From: Alphaproteobacteria bacterium
GTDB taxonomy: Bacteria; Pseudomonadota; Alphaproteobacteria; UBA6615
Length of the DNA: 64,000 bases
Assembly: GCA_039980135.1 (NCBI GenBank)
Contig: JBDXCV010000006.1
Span: forward strand, 1-64,000
Direction of reading: 5' to 3'
Part shown: one piece after another, positions 16,139-26,078 of the stretch
Layout of the letters: each line of letters begins with the position of its first letter
Numbering within the stretch: the stretch's first letter is position 1
Notes under the pieces: generated by a model
Seen by the model: only the letters and a program-made list of their open reading frames with translations
Databases searched by the model: none
What the model was told of the DNA's origin: nothing
Program-made: the position numbers and the translations under genes

Positions 16139-17776
16139 CTACTGCGCGGCGTTTGCCAGTTCGTTCGCCTGATCGCGCAGCTTGAACTTCTGGATCTTGC
16201 CGGTCGAGGTCTTGGGCAGAGGCCCAAAGACGATGTGCCGGGGGCATTTGAAGTGGGCGAGGTTGTCGCGGCAATGGCGGATGATGTCGTCTTCCGTCGC
16301 CTCGGCGCCGGGCTTCAGCTCGATGAAGGCGCAGGGAGTCTCGCCCCATTTCTCGTCGGGCCAGGCAACGACGCCGACCGCCGAGACCGCGGCGTGCTTG
16401 TACAGGGTGTCCTCGACCTCGATCGACGAGATGTTCTCGCCACCCGAGATGATGATGTCCTTGGAGCGGTCCTTGAGCTCGATATAGCCGTCGGGATGCC
16501 AGACCCCGAGGTCGCCGGTGTGGAACCAGCCGCCGGCAAACGCGTCGTTCGTGGCCGTCGGGTTTTTCAGATAGCCTTTCATGGTGACGTTGCCGCGGGT
16601 GAAGACCTCTCCCATGGTCTTGCCGTCCTGGGGGACGGGGGCCAGGGTCTCGGGATCGGCGACCATCATGTCTTCCAGGACCTCGTAGGGTACGCCCTGG
16701 CGCGATTGCAGACGCGCGCGTTCATCAAGCGGCAGCGCGTCCCACTCGTCCTGCCATGCGCAGATGATGGCGGGGCCGTAGATCTCGGTCAGGCCGTAGA
16801 CATGTGTGACGTTGATGCCCTCTTCGGACATCGCCGCCAGCACGGCGGCCGGCGGCGGGGCGGCGGCGGTCATGAACTCGACCTGCTGATCGAAGGTCCG
16901 GCGGTCCGCGTCGGCCGCGTTGACGATCATCTGCATGACGATCGGGGCGCCGCAAAGATGGGTGATGCCCTTGCTCTCGATCGCTTCGTAGATCGAGGCG
17001 GAACTCACATCGCGCAGGCAGACATTGGTGCCGGCCACGGCGGTCACGCCCCAGGTGAAGCACCAGCCGTTGCAGTGGAACATCGGCAGGGTCCAGAGAT
17101 AGACCGGGCCGCCGGTTGCCCCCCAGGTGAAGACGTTGCCGATGGCGTTGAGATAGGCACCGCGGTGATGGAAAACCACGCCCTTGGGGTTGCCCGTCGT
17201 GCCGGAGGTGTAGTTGAGCGCGATCGCGTCCCATTCGTCGTCGGGGAACGACCACTCGAATTCCGGGTCGCCGGTGGCGATGAAGGCCTCGTAATCCATC
17301 TCACCGAGTTTTTCGCCGCCGGGGCCCTCCGGGTCGTCGATGTCGATGACGATGGGGTCGACCGTGGCCAGCGCCAGCGCCTCCTTGATGACCGGTGCGA
17401 ACTCGGTGTCGGTGAGCAGCACCTTGGCTTCGCCGTGGTCGAGGATGAAGGCGATGGCCTTGGCATCGAGGCGGTAGTTGAGCGCGTTGATGACGCCGCG
17501 GGTCATGGGCACGCCGAAATGGGCTTCGAGCATGGGCGGCGTGTTGGGCGACATGATCGCCACGCAGTCACCGACGCCGATCCCGCGTTGGGCGAGCGCC
17601 GAGGCGAGGCGCCGCGTGCGGGCATAGAACTCCGCATAGGTGAAGCGCGTGTCGCCATGCACCACCGCGGCCCGGTTAGGGTAGACCTTCGCCGAGCGGC
17701 GAATGAAGCTGAGTGGGGACAGGGGCGTGAAATTCGCCGCGTTCTTGTCCAAGTCAGTTTCGAAATGATTGACCAT
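16139..17776 (-). CDS. AMP-forming acyl-CoA synthetase
   Basis: A 545-residue member of the ANL superfamily that activates a carboxylic acid to its acyl-adenylate and then the CoA thioester. The P-loop-like motif YTSGTTGNPKG, the YGLTE motif (VYGLTEIYG), the hinge TGDLGVWHPDGYIELKDRSKD and the C-terminal lysine in KTSTGKIQKFKLR are all present. Overall features (CNGWCFTWGVTAVAGTNVC) resemble the medium-chain/DmdB-like group, but the acid cannot be named. Start set at the ATG behind GGAGGAAAGC; an ORF start 33 bases upstream lacks this site. It is 56 bp downstream of the DUF1192 gene. Confidence 0.92.
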   Translation of the reverse strand: MVNHFETDLDKNAANFTPLSPLSFIRRSAKVYPNRAAVVHGDTRFTYAEFYARTRRLASALAQRGIGVGDCVAIMSPNTPPMLEAHFGVPMTRGVINALNYRLDAKAIAFILDHGEAKVLLTDTEFAPVIKEALALATVDPIVIDIDDPEGPGGEKLGEMDYEAFIATGDPEFEWSFPDDEWDAIALNYTSGTTGNPKGVVFHHRGAYLNAIGNVFTWGATGGPVYLWTLPMFHCNGWCFTWGVTAVAGTNVCLRDVSSASIYEAIESKGITHLCGAPIVMQMIVNAADADRRTFDQQVEFMTAAAPPPAAVLAAMSEEGINVTHVYGLTEIYGPAIICAWQDEWDALPLDERARLQSRQGVPYEVLEDMMVADPETLAPVPQDGKTMGEVFTRGNVTMKGYLKNPTATNDAFAGGWFHTGDLGVWHPDGYIELKDRSKDIIISGGENISSIEVEDTLYKHAAVSAVGVVAWPDEKWGETPCAFIELKPGAEATEDDIIRHCRDNLAHFKCPRHIVFGPLPKTSTGKIQKFKLRDQANELANAAQ

Positions 17777-17832
17777 GCTTTCCTCCACGCCCCGTTGACG
17801 GGCGCTCATTCTCGTAACTACGCGTTTGAACT

Positions 17833-18030
17833 CTAGCTCTTGAATAAAGCGTCGGCGTCACCGCGCAAGGCTTCCCGCCCGGCGATCTCGGCCTCGGCGC
17901 GCGCGATTTCCTTTGTGGCATGCTCGATATAGGCCTTCAGCTCCTCGATCGATAGCGCCTCGACCTTCATCTCGCTGAAATCGCCCGGGTGTCCCTGAAA
18001 TGTCGGTTCCAGATCGTCTTCCGCGCTCAT
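17833..18030 (-). CDS. DUF1192 family protein
   Basis: A 65-residue acidic protein ending in a helix (SIEELKAYIEHATKEIARAE then IAGREALRGDADALFK) characteristic of DUF1192, a small alphaproteobacterial family of unknown role. GGAGGGGAAA precedes the ATG. The family is often found beside an NAD(P)H-quinone oxidoreductase gene and TrcR, and that arrangement is present here, with the oxidoreductase divergent. Confidence 0.88.
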   Translation of the reverse strand: MSAEDDLEPTFQGHPGDFSEMKVEALSIEELKAYIEHATKEIARAEAEIAGREALRGDADALFKS

Positions 18031-18075
18031 TTTCCCCTCCCTGCCGCTGCCGCCTGTTCGTTGTACGGCTTGTCG

Positions 18076-18104: not shown

Positions 18105-18151
18105 GCGCCCGCAACCATCAGAAAGAACGAGACACCAAACGGAGGGTGATC

Positions 18152-19162
18152 ATGGCGTTGCCGGAAACAATGCGAGCGATGGAAATTTCCGAGCCGGGTG
18201 GGCCGGAGGTGTTGACGCTCACGGATCGTCCCGTGCCGTCGCCGGGCGATGGCGAGGTGTTGATCCGGGTCGCGGCGGCGGGGGTGAACCGACCCGACGT
18301 AGCACAGCGCAAGGGGCTCTATCCCGCACCGCCGGGCGCGTCAGACCTGCCGGGGCTGGAGGTCTCGGGCGAAATCGTCGCGCTGGGATCCGGCGTGGAT
18401 GGCTGGCAAGAGGGTGACGAGGTCTGCGCGCTGGTCTCCGGCGGCGGCTATGCCGAATATGTCGCGGTTCCCGGGTCCCAGACCCTGCCGGTGCCCAAAG
18501 GCCTCGACATGGTGCAGGCGGCCGGTGTGCCCGAGACGTTCTTCACGGTCTGGACCAATGTTTTCGATCGCGGGCGTTTTGCGGTGGGCGAGCGATTCCT
18601 GGTGCATGGCGGCTCGAGCGGCATCGGCACCACGGCGATCCAGCTCTGCAAGGCGTTCGGCGCATCCGCGATTTACACCACGGTCGGCACGGCGGAGAAG
18701 GCAGTCTTCTGCGAGACGCTCGGCGCGACGAAGGCCATCAACTACAGGACCGAGGCCTTCGAAGAGGTGATCGCGGCCGACACCGCCGAAACGGAAGGCG
18801 GCAAGGGCGTCGATGTGATCCTCGATATGGTGGGCGGCGATTATACGCCGCGCAACATCGCGTCCCTGCGGCCCGACGGGCGGATCGTGCAGATTGCCCT
18901 GATGGGCGGGGCCAAGACCGAGATCAACCTCGCGAAGATCATGATGAACCGGCTGACCCTGACCGGTTCGACCCTGCGGCCGCAATCGGTGGCGACGAAG
19001 GCGGGAATCGCCGCGTCGTTGCGTGAAAATGTCTGGCCGAAATTCGCGGCCGGCGAACTGGCGCCCGTGATCCACGCGACATTCCCGCTCGATCAGGCGC
19101 CGGCGGCCCACGAATTGATGGAAACCAGCACCCATATCGGCAAGATCATCCTCGAGCTGTGA
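18152..19162 (+). CDS. NAD(P)H-quinone oxidoreductase (PIG3/Qor-like, MDR family)
   Basis: A 336-residue medium-chain dehydrogenase/reductase without the zinc ligands of alcohol dehydrogenases. The N-terminal GroES-like domain carries GVNRPDVAQRKGLYPAPPGA and the Rossmann domain the motif VHGGSSGIGTTAIQL, with ADTAETEGGKGVDVILDMVGG typical of the TP53I3/PIG3-like quinone reductase subgroup. It should reduce small quinones with NADPH. CGGAGG lies 6-7 bases before the ATG chosen; the frame is open 63 bases farther upstream. It precedes trcR by 133 bp. Confidence 0.92.
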   Translation: MALPETMRAMEISEPGGPEVLTLTDRPVPSPGDGEVLIRVAAAGVNRPDVAQRKGLYPAPPGASDLPGLEVSGEIVALGSGVDGWQEGDEVCALVSGGGYAEYVAVPGSQTLPVPKGLDMVQAAGVPETFFTVWTNVFDRGRFAVGERFLVHGGSSGIGTTAIQLCKAFGASAIYTTVGTAEKAVFCETLGATKAINYRTEAFEEVIAADTAETEGGKGVDVILDMVGGDYTPRNIASLRPDGRIVQIALMGGAKTEINLAKIMMNRLTLTGSTLRPQSVATKAGIAASLRENVWPKFAAGELAPVIHATFPLDQAPAAHELMETSTHIGKIILEL

Positions 19163-19295: not shown

Positions 19296-19952
19296 ATGGC
19301 ACCTCCGTTGATGCCGAAGGCCACGGCGGTCTGGCTCGTGGAAAATACGTCGCTGTCGTTCGCACAGATCGCGGACTTCACCGGTATGCACCAGCTCGAG
19401 ATCCAGGGCATCGCCGACGGCGAGGTCGGGGTCGGAATGCACGGGCTCGATCCGGTGGCCAACGGCCAGGTCGAGGCGGACGAGATCGAACGCTGCCAGG
19501 CCGATCCCGCAGCGCGTCTCGTGCTCCAGGAATCGGACAATCCCGCACCGGTCAAGCGCACCAAGGGGCCGCGCTACGTGCCTGTCTCGAAGCGCCAGGA
19601 CAAACCCGACGGTATCGCCTATCTGGTCCGCTACTATCCGGAACTCAGCGACGCCCAGATCGGCAAGCTGATCGGCACCACGAAGCCGACAATCACCGCC
19701 ATTCGCGATCGGACCCATTGGAACTCCTCGCAGATCCAGCCCCGCGACCCGGTGACCATCGGGCTGTGCCGGCAGGTCGATCTCGACGAGGCGATCGAGA
19801 AGGGCCGCAAGGCGGGCCGCGCGCCGGCCGCCGACGATCGCCGCCCGATTAGTGCGGACCTGATCCCCGAGGAAGAGCCCGCGCAGAGCCGGATTCCCGA
19901 CTGGATGGCCGATGTGCGGATCGGCGGCGGGAATAATCAGGGCGACAACTAA
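19296..19952 (+). CDS. trcR: TrcR/DUF1013 cell-cycle transcriptional regulator
   Basis: A 218-residue member of DUF1013, an alphaproteobacterial family described as cell-cycle regulators. The sequence has two helix-turn-helix-like stretches, SLSFAQIADFTGMHQLEIQG (near residue 20) and LSDAQIGKLIGTTKPTITAI (near residue 115), followed by an invariant-looking RDRTHWNSSQIQPRDPV block. AAAGGAG lies 7 bases before the ATG. A promoter and a strong terminator flank it, so it is a single-gene unit. CtrA-type sites occur elsewhere in the window (20038, 25116), consistent with a CtrA-type cell-cycle circuit in this organism. Confidence 0.9.
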   Translation: MAPPLMPKATAVWLVENTSLSFAQIADFTGMHQLEIQGIADGEVGVGMHGLDPVANGQVEADEIERCQADPAARLVLQESDNPAPVKRTKGPRYVPVSKRQDKPDGIAYLVRYYPELSDAQIGKLIGTTKPTITAIRDRTHWNSSQIQPRDPVTIGLCRQVDLDEAIEKGRKAGRAPAADDRRPISADLIPEEEPAQSRIPDWMADVRIGGGNNQGDN

Positions 19953-19981
19953 GCCACTGATATAAAGTGATTAATACAAGA

Positions 19982-20008
19982 ACGGGGTCCGGTTTCGGGC
20001 CCCGTTTT
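19982..20008 (+). terminator. Intrinsic terminator of trcR
   Basis: ACGGGG-T-CC, loop GGTTTC, GG-G-CCCCGT followed by TTT; the stem is 9 bp with one G-U pair. It begins 29 bases after the trcR stop. Confidence 0.85.
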
Positions 20009-20037
20009 CGTGTGCGGTCTGGTTCGCGTTCGCCGCG

Positions 20038-20069
20038 TTAACCATTCTTTAGACATTGCCTGCGATATT
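20038..20069 (+). promoter_or_regulatory. Near-consensus CtrA box with an extended -10
   Basis: TTAA-CCATTCT-TTAG at 20038-20052 matches the CtrA site TTAA-N7-TTAA at seven of eight conserved bases and includes the half-site TTAACCAT. It covers the -35 position of a possible promoter whose extended -10 is TGC-GATATT at 20061-20069, giving a predicted start near 20076. An alternative reading is -35 TTAGAC at 20049-20054 with TGTGAT at 20073-20078, but that start would fall inside the hairpin described next. Confidence 0.45.
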
Positions 20070-20101
20070 GCGTGTGATGGCTCCTCCCATAGACCATCTT
20101 T

Positions 20102-20126
20102 GGATCTTACCCAGATCCTCTTTTTT
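20102..20126 (+). terminator. Terminator 1 of the trcR-metY spacer
   Basis: GGATCT-TACCC-AGATCC followed by TCTTTTTT. The stem is only 6 bp but perfect and the T-run is strong. No protein gene ends before it except trcR, which has its own terminator 95 bp earlier. Confidence 0.65.
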
Positions 20127-20147
20127 GCCTCCCTGTTTGACTTCGAG

Positions 20148-20183
20148 CCGCTTCGGATCCCCCTTCCGAAGCGGTTTTCTTTT
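20148..20183 (+). terminator. Terminator 2 of the trcR-metY spacer
   Basis: CCGCTTCGGA-TCCCCCT-TCCGAAGCGG, a perfect 10-bp stem, followed by TTTTCTTTT. It lies 85 bp before metY, which must therefore be read from a promoter in 20184-20267 or by read-through. Confidence 0.85.
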
Positions 20184-20267
20184 GTCGCGTGTACCCGTGC
20201 CGGTTCAAGCCCGCGCCTCGTTGGGATAAGTTCCGCGGCGAGTTCCTATCGCTGCCGGACAAGACCC

Positions 20268-21572
20268 ATGATCGATCCCAAGCATCTGAAATTCGCGACG
20301 CTGAGCCTGCATGCGGGTCAGCATCCCGACCCGGTGACCGGCGCGCGCGCCGCACCGATCTATCAGTCGACCTCCTACGTGTTCCCCGATGTCGAATATG
20401 CCGCGAGCCTGTTCAACCTCGAACGGGCCGGGCACATCTATTCGCGGATTTCGAACCCCACGGTGGCGGTGTTCGAGGAGCGCATGGCCGCGCTCGAGGG
20501 CGGGGTCGGTGCGATCGCGACGGCCAGCGGACAGGCGGCCATGAGCCTCGCGGTGATGACCCTGATGGGGGCGGGCGGGCACATCGTTGCCTCGCGAAAC
20601 ATCTATGGCGGCACCCACAACCTGTTCGTGCACACATTGCCGCGGTTCGGGATTACCACGACATTCGTCGATCCGCGTGATCCGGAGGCCTTCAGGTCCG
20701 CCATCCGCGACGAGACGCGTCTGGTCTTCGCCGAGACGATCGGCAATCCGGGTCTTGAGGTGCTGGATATCTCTGCCGTGTCGGCGGTGGCGCACGCCGC
20801 CGGCCTGCCTCTGCTGGTGGACGCCACATTCTCGACCCCCGCATTGCTCTACCCGTTCGAGCACGGGGCCGACCTGATCATGCATTCGGCGACCAAGTGG
20901 ATCGGCGGGCACGGCGTCGCGATCGGCGGCGTGCTGATCGACGGCGGCAGATTCGACTGGGAAAGCTCGGACAAGTTTCCGGGCATGACCGAGCCCTATG
21001 CGGGCTATCACGGGCTGGACTTCGCCGAGGAGTTCGGTCCGGCCGCCTTCATCATGCGCGCGCGCGCCGAGGGCTTGCGCGATTTCGGCGCCTGCATGGC
21101 CCCTCAGACGGCGTTCTACCTGTTGCAGGGGCTCGAGACCCTGCCGATCCGCATGGCGCGGCATGTGGCGAACGCGCTGGTGGTGGCGCAATTCCTCGAA
21201 GCCGCCGACGAGGTGGCCTGGGTGACCTATCCGGGGCTGGAGAGCCATCCAGACCATGTGTTGGCGCAGAAGCTCTTGCCTGACGGGGCGGGCGCCATCG
21301 TCACCTTCGGGGTCAAGCCCGGCATCGCCGGTCCGCGGCGCGCGGGTGCCAAATTCATCGAGGCGCTGGAGCTGTTCTCCCATCTGGCCAATGTGGGAGA
21401 TGCGAAATCGCTGGTGATCCACCCGGCCAGCACGACCCATCAGCAGATGAGCGCGGAGGATCTGGCGGCGGCGGGGGTCGGCGAAGACATGGTGCGCCTG
21501 GCGATCGGCCTCGAGGATCCCGGTGACATCGTCGCGGACTTGAAGCAGGCGCTGCGCGCCTCGCAGAAATAG
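20268..21572 (+). CDS. metY: O-acetylhomoserine sulfhydrylase (Cys/Met PLP enzyme)
   Basis: A 434-residue Cys/Met-metabolism PLP enzyme that should make homocysteine from O-acetyl-L-homoserine and sulfide. The PLP lysine is Lys210 in HSATKWIGGHG; the N-terminus reads TLSLHAGQHPDPVTGARAAP, typical of the MetY group and longer than MetZ/MetB. ASGQAA (86-91) is the cofactor-stacking region. Start taken at ATG 20268 because the open frame upstream runs through terminator 2. The next gene, a hydrolase, begins 11 bp after the stop, so they are probably co-transcribed. No SAM-II riboswitch consensus is seen in the leader. Confidence 0.93.
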   Translation: MIDPKHLKFATLSLHAGQHPDPVTGARAAPIYQSTSYVFPDVEYAASLFNLERAGHIYSRISNPTVAVFEERMAALEGGVGAIATASGQAAMSLAVMTLMGAGGHIVASRNIYGGTHNLFVHTLPRFGITTTFVDPRDPEAFRSAIRDETRLVFAETIGNPGLEVLDISAVSAVAHAAGLPLLVDATFSTPALLYPFEHGADLIMHSATKWIGGHGVAIGGVLIDGGRFDWESSDKFPGMTEPYAGYHGLDFAEEFGPAAFIMRARAEGLRDFGACMAPQTAFYLLQGLETLPIRMARHVANALVVAQFLEAADEVAWVTYPGLESHPDHVLAQKLLPDGAGAIVTFGVKPGIAGPRRAGAKFIEALELFSHLANVGDAKSLVIHPASTTHQQMSAEDLAAAGVGEDMVRLAIGLEDPGDIVADLKQALRASQK

Positions 21573-24895: not shown

Positions 24896-25355
24896 TGTTC
24901 GCGGCCATGATGGTTGATGTTCGACTTTCGGAGGATGGAACGGCGCATGTCCGGCGCACAGTGACGGTGGTCACACACAGGTCGGGTGCCGGGTGTCGTA
25001 TGTCGCCGAGGCGGACCGGAATCGCCTGAATACGATGGTGCCATAAATTTTCTCCTCAGAAAAAATCCTTATAAGACAAATACATAGGACGAAATTTATA
25101 ATCGGACCCAAATGGTTAACGAAAGGTTAACGAGGTTGGTAGCGCTGTGTGCGGTTGCAAAAAAATGGTGAGGCGCTTCATCCGATTGGCCAGAGCACCC
25201 GCCAAACGGGTGAGTGGGTCTCCTCCAACGGTCGTAGTAAAAACAAACAAAAAAATTAATAAATACTAATGGAACGATAACGATACCGATGCGGGAGCGA
25301 ATTAATTTCCGCGTGTTCGTAGCCTTTTCTCCGTCGACAGGAGAAAGGCAGAGAC
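24896..25355. promoter_or_regulatory. 460-bp divergent regulatory region with AT-rich core
   Basis: No protein gene fits here. The part 25040-25290 is markedly AT-rich compared with the rest of the window. It contains a perfect -10 (TATAAT, 25097-25102) with -35 AAGACA 17 bp upstream, the CtrA box (25116-25131), a 6-bp hairpin CACCCG-CCAAA-CGGGTG at 25196-25212 and a CTCCTCC anti-SD run at 25220-25226, then an A-rich tract. The layout suggests a long, regulated leader for the protease gene, or a promoter firing toward the LuxR gene. Confidence 0.5.
25116..25131. promoter_or_regulatory. Perfect CtrA binding site
   Basis: GGTTAACGA is directly repeated with an 11-bp period, producing TTAA-CGAAAGG-TTAAC, an exact match to the CtrA consensus TTAA-N7-TTAA(C). 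On the - strand a TATAAA lies about 15 bp past the box, the spacing of a CtrA-activated promoter for the LuxR-type gene; on the + strand the box would overlap the start region of the TATAAT promoter and could repress it. Confidence 0.7.
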
Positions 25356-26078
25356 ATGGGCGGTATTCGAGCGTTCTTCCGACCTATTTGGGAAGAATAT
25401 TCGTTCAGTCAGGCAATAATATCTATCCTGACTATTCTGTTTTTCTTGATTATATCGACGGGCAGCGTTGTTGCGGCCGGGAATGCGGCCGGGCGCACGG
25501 CCTTTGAAGGGAAGATCACCTCGATCAAGGCGGTTCACCTCGCCCGTGCCAAGCCACCCCAGAAACTCAACGATGTGATTGCCAGGCACACCGCTCAGGT
25601 GGCCGCGCGTGGTGCGAAGCTTGCGGGGGTCTCGAAGCCCGCTGTTGTCGTTGGTGATTGGCAGAAGTTGATCGCGCGGCTGAAGGGGCTGTCACGTCGA
25701 GACCGGGTGCTGGAGGTCGAACGTTACTTCGGGGCGTTCCGCTATGTGAGCGACATGAAAGGCTGGCGGAAGAAAGACTACTGGGCCAGTCCGTACGAGT
25801 TCATCGCGCGGCGCCAGGGCGACTGCGAGGACTTTGCCATCGCCCGCTACATGGCGCTGCGCGAGGCGGGTTTCGATGACAAGGACCTGAATCTGATGGG
25901 TGTTACCGACCGGCGCTCGCGGCTGTTCCACATGGTGCTCGCGGTGAACGTGGATGGCGAGGTTCTGGTGCTCGACAACCAGGCCAAGCACCCGGTCGCG
26001 ACCCTTGATCTCAGACGCTACGAACCCGCCTACGCGATCAATCAGAACAACCGCTGGATCACCAGGCGTGCCGGCTGA
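25356..26078 (+). CDS. LapG-like transglutaminase-type cysteine peptidase
   Basis: A 240-residue bacterial transglutaminase-like cysteine peptidase. An N-terminal hydrophobic segment (residues 19-41, AIISILTILFFLIIS) exports or anchors it, and the catalytic triad is clear: Cys157 in RRQGDCEDFA, His192 in SRLFHMVLAV and Asp207 in VLVLDNQAK. Family members such as LapG sit in the periplasm and cut large adhesins from the surface under c-di-GMP control through LapD. No LapD or adhesin gene is nearby. AGGAGAAAGG precedes the ATG. A receiver gene follows 35 bp later, probably in the same transcript. Confidence 0.9.
   Translation: MGGIRAFFRPIWEEYSFSQAIISILTILFFLIISTGSVVAAGNAAGRTAFEGKITSIKAVHLARAKPPQKLNDVIARHTAQVAARGAKLAGVSKPAVVVGDWQKLIARLKGLSRRDRVLEVERYFGAFRYVSDMKGWRKKDYWASPYEFIARRQGDCEDFAIARYMALREAGFDDKDLNLMGVTDRRSRLFHMVLAVNVDGEVLVLDNQAKHPVATLDLRRYEPAYAINQNNRWITRRAG

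Follow-up and report, generated by a model that had tools for sequence, protein, structure and literature searches.

We find that positions 20038-20184 of the window, i.e. the whole stretch of 64 kb analysed here, hold a real, conserved small-RNA gene. The RNA appears to be related to, but diverged from, the BjrC1505 type (RF02356, a Bradyrhizobium sRNA family), a small RNA known from the Alphaproteobacteria. We give a probability of about two in three to the following reading: the gene is an independent small-RNA gene near trcR, a probable ortholog of the BjrC1505-type RNAs, activated by phosphorylated CtrA, and its RNA would repress several mRNAs by pairing with their ribosome-binding sites. 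For this explanation the promoter layout, the predicted structure, the conservation and the synteny were computed, while we infer transcription, CtrA binding, the role of Hfq and the targets.

The gene lies on the forward strand between trcR (19296-19952, Pfam TrcR PF06242, 213 bits) and metY, which encodes O-acetylhomoserine aminocarboxypropyltransferase (20268-21572, NF006004, 743 bits), both on the same strand. An earlier interpretation made from the letters alone (the sequence-only reading) had placed a small-RNA candidate here; the Pfam match confirms that it adjoins trcR, and the computations support a gene for an RNA of about 108 nt in the intergenic space, with motifs of the anti-Shine-Dalgarno (anti-SD) type. 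Two syntenic neighbours are found on the other side of trcR, a zinc-binding NAD(P)H quinone oxidoreductase (QOR, 18149-19162, forward strand, TIGR02824, 474 bits) and a DUF1192 gene (17833-18033, reverse strand, PF06698, 50.7 bits). They are preceded by an AMP-binding ligase (16139-17809, reverse strand, PF00501, 263 bits), a gene that adjoins the RNA in some other genera.

All the elements listed in the sequence-only reading are present in the sequence, but the hairpin behind trcR, visible near 19982-20009, is not called by our terminator rule. The gene begins with a CtrA-type box, TTAA-CCATTCT-TTAG (TTAACCATTCTTTAG, 20038-20052), followed by a -10 element GATATT with TGC immediately 5' of it (20064-20069). 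The predicted RNA, about 108-109 nt long, covers 20076-20184, its 5' end being placed about 7 nt past the -10. Single-sequence folding gives a first hairpin, SL1 (20076-20098, stem GATGG/CCATC), with the anti-SD-type sequence CTCCTCCC in its loop (20081-20088). A second predicted hairpin, SL2 (20102-20118, GGATCT-TACCC-AGATCC), is followed by TCTTTTTT. The motif GCCTCCCTGTT (20127-20137) is constant across the class, near-invariant in alignment A2 and predicted to be single-stranded, with an unpaired probability of 0.97 for CCUCCC. The gene ends with an intrinsic terminator and its T tract (20145-20184), graded strong, with 13 pairs in the hairpin 20145-20177. Between this terminator and metY a further conserved element, CCGGTTCAAGCCCG...GGTTG(C/G)GATAAGTT (20200-20235), is seen in 11 of 12 aligned family rows; it is perhaps the promoter or leader of metY.

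For the RNA of 109 nt the predicted folding energy is -35.6 kcal/mol (z -6.1 compared with shuffles). The 8-mer CTCCTCCC is unremarkable by itself, as 2.3 occurrences are expected in 64 kb and one is found. For the free motif, the mean unpaired probability of CCUCCC is 0.88 over 13 family rows and 0.85 over 27 genera, and it is at least 0.8 in 10/13 and 19/27, respectively. The part 5' of this motif folds better than shuffles (z < -1.5) in 10 of the 13 family rows and 21 of the 27 genera. Between genera the stem sequences diverge strongly and the hairpins persist in most; in this single-fold survey the end rule clipped the terminator in at least L125, L186, L197 and L161. RNAalifold did not recover SL1 and SL2 on alignment A1 because the alignment shifts there, so the support for these two hairpins rests on single folds. 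Compensatory changes, which the sequence-only reading had named as support, were seen in the terminator stem (both-side changes in three pairs) but not in the SL1 stem, since this stem is nearly invariant in the family.

Conservation was assessed in a sample of 24 genomes of the family, with positions 20020-20190 as blastn query. The unit is matched in 10 of them at E <=4e-12 and in G023 at E 0.055. Two further carriers were identified, G008 via trcR and RF02356 and G012 via a covariance model described below (R2), i.e. at least 13/24 family genomes carry the unit. The rows found by blastn are not blind to the CtrA box, because the query contained it; two loci, L114 and L248, were retrieved independently of that query. 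Nine of the 11 closer rows retain the CTCCTCCC loop; in the other two, L008 and L010, it is changed, and the more distant L114 and L248 do not have it. The box, the structure and the terminator are conserved in the family, and the constant part across the class is GCCUCCCUGUU rather than the SL1 loop.

To which RNA family does the gene belong? An Rfam search of the 64 kb window gave no match at the gathering level. Four matches lie below the cut-offs, suhB/mmgR (RF00519, 23.1 bits, gathering score 41), ctRNA_p42d (20.0 bits), ar14 (RF02344, 17.2 bits, gathering score 58.8) and BjrC1505 (RF02356, 15.3 bits, gathering score 50), and no CcsR family is among these four. The sequence-only reading had favoured an RNA of the ar14 and CcsR type. 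An assignment to ar14 fails in the covariance search, where the score is far below the cut-off, and the three CCUCCUCCC hairpins are missing; we rejected an ar14 identity, the RNA having one anti-SD loop (CUCCUCCC) and one free motif, with TACCC in the SL2 loop and TCCCCCT in the terminator loop.

Two models of our own were applied to the relation with the BjrC1505 type. R1 was built from 11 family RNAs, with the box excluded and the window sequence included, and gives 123 bits on the window. In 43 other loci, BjrC1505-type and others, it has 33 matches at E <=1, of which 18, including L114, are below E 0.01 (best 35.4 bits). In 31 mmgR loci R1 finds nothing below E 0.18 (best 16.7 bits), and the mmgR of the window's own genome is absent from its matches. 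RF02356 itself matches 40 of 386 genomes of the class at E <=0.001, 17 of them above the cut-off, and gives 42.9 bits for L114, the trcR-linked RNA of G008. R2 was built from 33 BjrC1505-like RNAs, none from the family. As the consensus of RF02356 takes in the box region (positions 8-22), these RNAs were trimmed to start 60 nt 5' of CCTCCC; in two seed rows, L155 and L159, the final box base still falls inside the cut. R2 gives 51 bits for L114, 29.5 bits for the window (E 7e-5 in 104 kb) and 28.6 bits for the own-genome mmgR. It scores the latter two nearly alike, and so fails to separate them, and it also picks up mmgR loci in other genomes; the 3' module of BjrC1505-type RNAs is also common to aR8/mmgR. 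The low window score to RF02356 and this overlap with mmgR count against a BjrC1505 assignment. Judged by the selectivity of R1 and the common gene neighbourhood, the nearest relatives of the window RNA are nevertheless the RNAs of the BjrC1505 type.

Positions 8-22 of RF02356 seem to hold the CtrA box as RNA. As the model counts the box as RNA, its 5' end may sit too far upstream; if that 5' end is right, it conflicts with a promoter role of the box there. An ordinary mmgR/suhB RNA is present elsewhere in the same genome (L119, G000:C6:220771-220842, 50.7 bits, above the cut-off).

The neighbourhood was compared in the genomes with R2 hits of at least 44 bits. All 44 have trcR. In 34 of them the gene and the RNA are no more than 10 kb apart, in eight the two are on different contigs, and in two (G281, G351) they share a contig but are distant. 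In 19 of the 34 linked genomes the distance is 1.4-1.9 kb, and the RNA is usually oriented away from trcR. With tblastn, QOR was found within 1.5 kb of the RNA in 20 of 30 loci (L171-L200) and a short DUF1192 in six. Alternative orders are MetY-RNA-DUF1192-QOR (L113) and AMP ligase-RNA-DUF1192-QOR (L255). In named genomes, 16 of 18 box-bearing RNAs are at most 3.6 kb from trcR, taking contig coordinates at face value; the exceptions are Pelagibius (about 30 kb) and the BBD 1991-14 MAG (about 16 kb). In these two loci (L269 from Pelagibius marinus and L270 from the MAG, 16-30 kb from trcR) the 5' part of the RNA also contains runs of CCCTCCCC and TCCTCCC, and the CtrA box is perfect.

The window has the same set of genes, in the order AMP ligase-DUF1192-QOR-TrcR-RNA-MetY, with the RNA on the opposite side of trcR. 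In most genera the RNA lies upstream of trcR, and its 3' position here counts against the BjrC1505 assignment. The window-like side is also found in L248, whose order QOR-TrcR-RNA-MetY is that of the window, and in L114, which adjoins trcR. Among 80 trcR loci, searched up to 900 bases downstream (three shorter), box and motif occur together only in L033, L034, L035 and L039, so the 3' placement is a trait of the window's family.

The sequence-only reading had also proposed that the box is a CtrA site. The CtrA motif is given as TTAA-N7-TTAA (PMC12403871), and most CtrA-activated promoters are described as having a single CtrA site at -35 (PMC11264516), each in the part of the paper available. 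At the window locus the sequence has this layout, a site of the TTAA-N7-TTAA type at the -35 position with a -10 downstream. TTAA-N7-TTAR is expected 0.07 times per 64 kb window and is seen at 20038-20052 and at one other, palindromic site. Among the 13 family loci the box scores 8/8 in 11, 7/8 in L248 and 6/8 in L008, i.e. 12/13 score at least 7/8 compared with 0.9/13 expected from shuffles. Each of the 12 family rows scored has A at box+27 and T at box+31. The box is thus conserved in the family and placed like a CtrA -35 site, as proposed. A promoter search of 19900-20300 returned no sigma-70 consensus, which fits an activator-dependent promoter without demonstrating one. A chance occurrence of the box is ruled out by the expectation of 0.07 and by the family and class-wide counts above shuffles.

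Across the class, R2 has 49 hits of at least 44 bits in 44/386 genomes, among matches listed down to 3.8e-4. A box was counted when it scored 7 or 8 of 8 and lay between -120 and -65 from CCTCCC. It is found in 44 of the 48 scored hits and in 26 of 28 genera, where shuffles give 9.7 hits, and it is perfect in 28 of the 48, where 0.9 are expected. The 48 consist of 43 rows scored first, 40 of them with a box, to which the second copy of L154 and the loci L128, L139, L140 and L215 were added; the 49th hit, the first L154 copy, is too close to a contig end and was left unscored. The four misses are L233, L236, L237 and L215, the last of which (G099:C148) is an mmgR hit. In the first 40 boxes the median offset is -90.5 (quartiles -93 and -88), compared with -90 in the window. 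Aligned at the box, the promoters of 25 genera read CG-TTAACC-N5-TTAA, with T and A at +26 and +27 in 80% and 84% and the -10 11 bp downstream. In the mmgR control, 30 RF00519 loci, a box is found in 0/30 (1.6 expected), and again in 0/30 when the range is widened to run from -150 to -25.

Most of these genomes with R2 hits were first found by RF02356, a model that sees the box, and the class counts should be read with this selection in mind. Among the eight genomes found by R2 alone, five have the box (L231, L232, L234, L235, L240) and three do not (L233, L236, L237). Below 44 bits, four of ten further loci score at least 7, two of these 8. In named genomes the box is present in 18 of 19 hits of at least 44 bits, the miss being Pontibrevibacter (L267); this count omits L268, the same locus as L114, and L278 and L280, which are without CTCC in the expected span. 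Eight weaker hits in named genomes, Rhodobacterales RNAs with ACCUCCCUGUUGGACUU and mmgR-like RNAs, have no CtrA box. Seven loci, mostly Rhodobacterales (L267, L271-L274, L276, L277), lack a CtrA box and have ACCUCCCUGUUGGACUU, or a sequence close to it, ahead of the terminator; they form a separate family. Tandem BjrC1505-type RNAs about 200 bases apart occur in L153, L154 and L172 (G365, G216), and both copies in G365 have their own box.

These results bear on two other views of what the RNA is. It could belong to the aR8/mmgR (SisA-type) or ar14-type anti-SD RNAs, its likeness to BjrC1505 being that of the 3' module alone and the CtrA box acquired separately. The order of the Rfam scores, with suhB/mmgR first, ar14 next and BjrC1505 last, and the mmgR RNAs picked up by R2 point in this direction. 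However, the genome has its separate, above-cut-off mmgR, no box is found at the 30 mmgR loci, R1 finds BjrC1505-type loci but none of the 31 mmgR loci below E 0.18, and the neighbour genes match those of BjrC1505-type loci, with L114 and L248 as bridges; we regard such an origin as unlikely. A leader or attenuator of metY instead of a free RNA appears very unlikely. The RNA does have the orientation of metY and lies about 85 nt 5' of it, and one open frame runs from 20010 into the gene, but a strong terminator stands in between, the promoter-like element at 20200-20235 is conserved past this terminator, the RNA adjoins other genes elsewhere and no riboswitch family was matched in Rfam. The frame is also stopped in 10 of 11 readable relatives, and on this ground we rejected both an N-terminal extension of MetY and a metY leader.

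A third alternative concerns the box, which could be the site of another regulator, a CtrA paralog or a protein of the MucR or SciP type, with CtrA not being the activator. It draws on the CtrA status of the 13 carriers. The window's own genome has an intact CtrA (NF045991, 423 bits), as do four others, i.e. 5/13 in total (G000, G004, G022, G008, G012), but no intact match was found in the other eight, which are fragmented drafts, so that single absences can be gaps. G006 retains only ctrA residues 165-238 beside a broken chpT, while pieces of chpT, but no adjoining ctrA, were found in G001, G002, G011, G020 and G021. Neither ctrA nor chpT was found in G003 and G023, and chpT was not found in G008 either. 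Seven of these eight carriers have a perfect box (G002, G003, G006, G011, G020, G021, G023). Against another regulator stand the class-wide pattern CG-TTAACC-N5-TTAA with its -10 11 bp downstream, which is the CtrA-promoter consensus, and the degenerate box (6/8) in G001, a genome with chpT pieces only. In addition, the chpT remnants are still 68-96% identical in their best pieces, and the losses of ctrA and chpT therefore look recent. Control by another regulator thus seems quite unlikely. Recent loss of CtrA may explain the retained boxes, with another binder as the alternative.

In the window's family, ctrA and the neighbouring chpT are broken or deleted in G006, G011, G021, G002, G020 and G001 (L352, L366, L368-L373) and intact in other members. 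To judge from the sequences, the master cell-cycle regulator has apparently been lost repeatedly and recently in this family.

Among known systems the window RNA is most like BjrC1505 (RF02356). Shared traits are the free GCCUCCCUGUU ahead of the terminator, a pair of 5' hairpins (found in most BjrC1505 RNAs), a CtrA-type box at the same distance and the neighbourhood of trcR, QOR and DUF1192; the box distance and the neighbourhood are traits found in this analysis and not published criteria. The window RNA differs in scoring below the cut-off, in its stem sequences, in the CUCCUCCC of SL1 and in its position 3' of trcR. The aR8/mmgR/SisA-D RNAs (RF00519) share the single-stranded CCUCCCU core 5' of the terminator but have no CtrA box. 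In Caulobacter SisA the CCUCCCU seed upstream of the terminator is described as pairing with an mRNA leader, and, in the part of that paper available, sisA-D have no promoter motif in common (PMC12559287). In ar14/NfeR1 (RF02344) an anti-SD motif of the CUCCUCCC type is also found in a hairpin loop; ar14 is described with three hairpins, each with CCUCCUCCC, whereas the window RNA has one such loop and one free motif, and the CCUCCUCCC motifs of NfeR1 are reported to silence ntrB (PMC10746234).

Two small RNAs connected with the cell cycle were also compared. Caulobacter CcnA has a CtrA box, is presumably activated by CtrA and has a C-rich loop with a proposed action at ribosome-binding sites, as in the window, but it is described as 182 nt long, located at the replication origin and targeting ctrA and gcrA (PMC8959179); this comparison is by description. 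A CcnA-like pairing with ctrA was sought by eye in the 60 nt before the ctrA of the window's own genome, where only GGAG and no extended complement was found. Caulobacter CCNA_R0025 and R0171 are listed with complete CtrA sites in a published table (PMC5988900, Table 3). EcpR1 of Sinorhizobium is likewise a conserved sRNA acting on the cell cycle, but has the GC-rich loop UCCGCCGCAUCU, lies downstream of divK/pleD and is described with a sigma-70 promoter and induction by stress (PMC4414408). By analogy with CtrA-activated promoters, SisA and NfeR1, the window RNA would be a CtrA-driven anti-SD RNA.

In the mechanism we propose, binding of phosphorylated CtrA to the box, which overlaps the -35 region, would switch on transcription from 20076, giving an RNA of about 108 nt that stops at the terminator 20145-20184. 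The exposed GCCUCCCUGUU, aided by CUCCUCCC in the first loop, would then lower the translation of several mRNAs by pairing in trans with ribosome-binding sites of the GGGAGG type, and Hfq would possibly be engaged at the U-rich stretches. Sites of the form ACAGGGAGG-N2-12-ATG occur in 21 of the 24 family genomes. In the 18 stretches that we read, such sites precede pdhB-like genes (G000, G003), a gene of the 2Fe-2S xanthine-dehydrogenase type (G000) and one for a binding protein of the TAXI type (G003, G006), the names being a reading of the protein sequences rather than the result of a family search. No target is claimed from these sites because plain Shine-Dalgarno use explains them. The pdhB-like genes of G000 and G003 (L311, L317) start behind ACAGGGAGG, which is complementary to the free motif of the RNA, and look-alikes are seen in G002 and G004.

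In a bacterial class, CtrA has the central role in cell-cycle regulation, and most of its known outputs are genes for proteins. The sequence-only reading had regarded possible cell-cycle control as new for an RNA of this kind. A CtrA-linked RNA has a precedent in CcnA (PMC8959179, as described in the part available), but for BjrC1505-type RNAs no report of a CtrA box or of linkage to trcR was found in the open literature searched; as the founding BjrC1505 and TrcR papers were not covered, this is no proof. In the literature searched, both the CtrA box about 90 nt before CCUCCC and the linkage to trcR seem unreported for BjrC1505-like RNAs. TrcR is described as an RNA-polymerase-associated factor (PMC12864828).

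We put at even odds a broader proposal, in which the CtrA regulon of the Alphaproteobacteria has an ancestral RNA arm formed by the BjrC1505-type RNAs: a CtrA-activated anti-SD RNA near trcR in many lineages, which would link the cell-cycle oscillator to the translation of many mRNAs and has been kept in the window's family even after the apparent recent loss of ctrA and chpT. If true, the conserved CtrA-promoted RNA would connect cell-cycle state with translation in a way open to direct test in many species, including the culturable Thalassospira, Labrenzia, Roseibium and Bosea. The BjrC1505 family would gain a regulator, and the trcR neighbourhood would be marked as a cell-cycle locus.

The second CtrA-type site of the window, the palindromic TTAACGAAAGGTTAA at 25116-25130, is located upstream of a BTLCP transglutaminase-type protease gene (25356-26078), which gives 88 bits with the LapG model, below the LapG cut-off.
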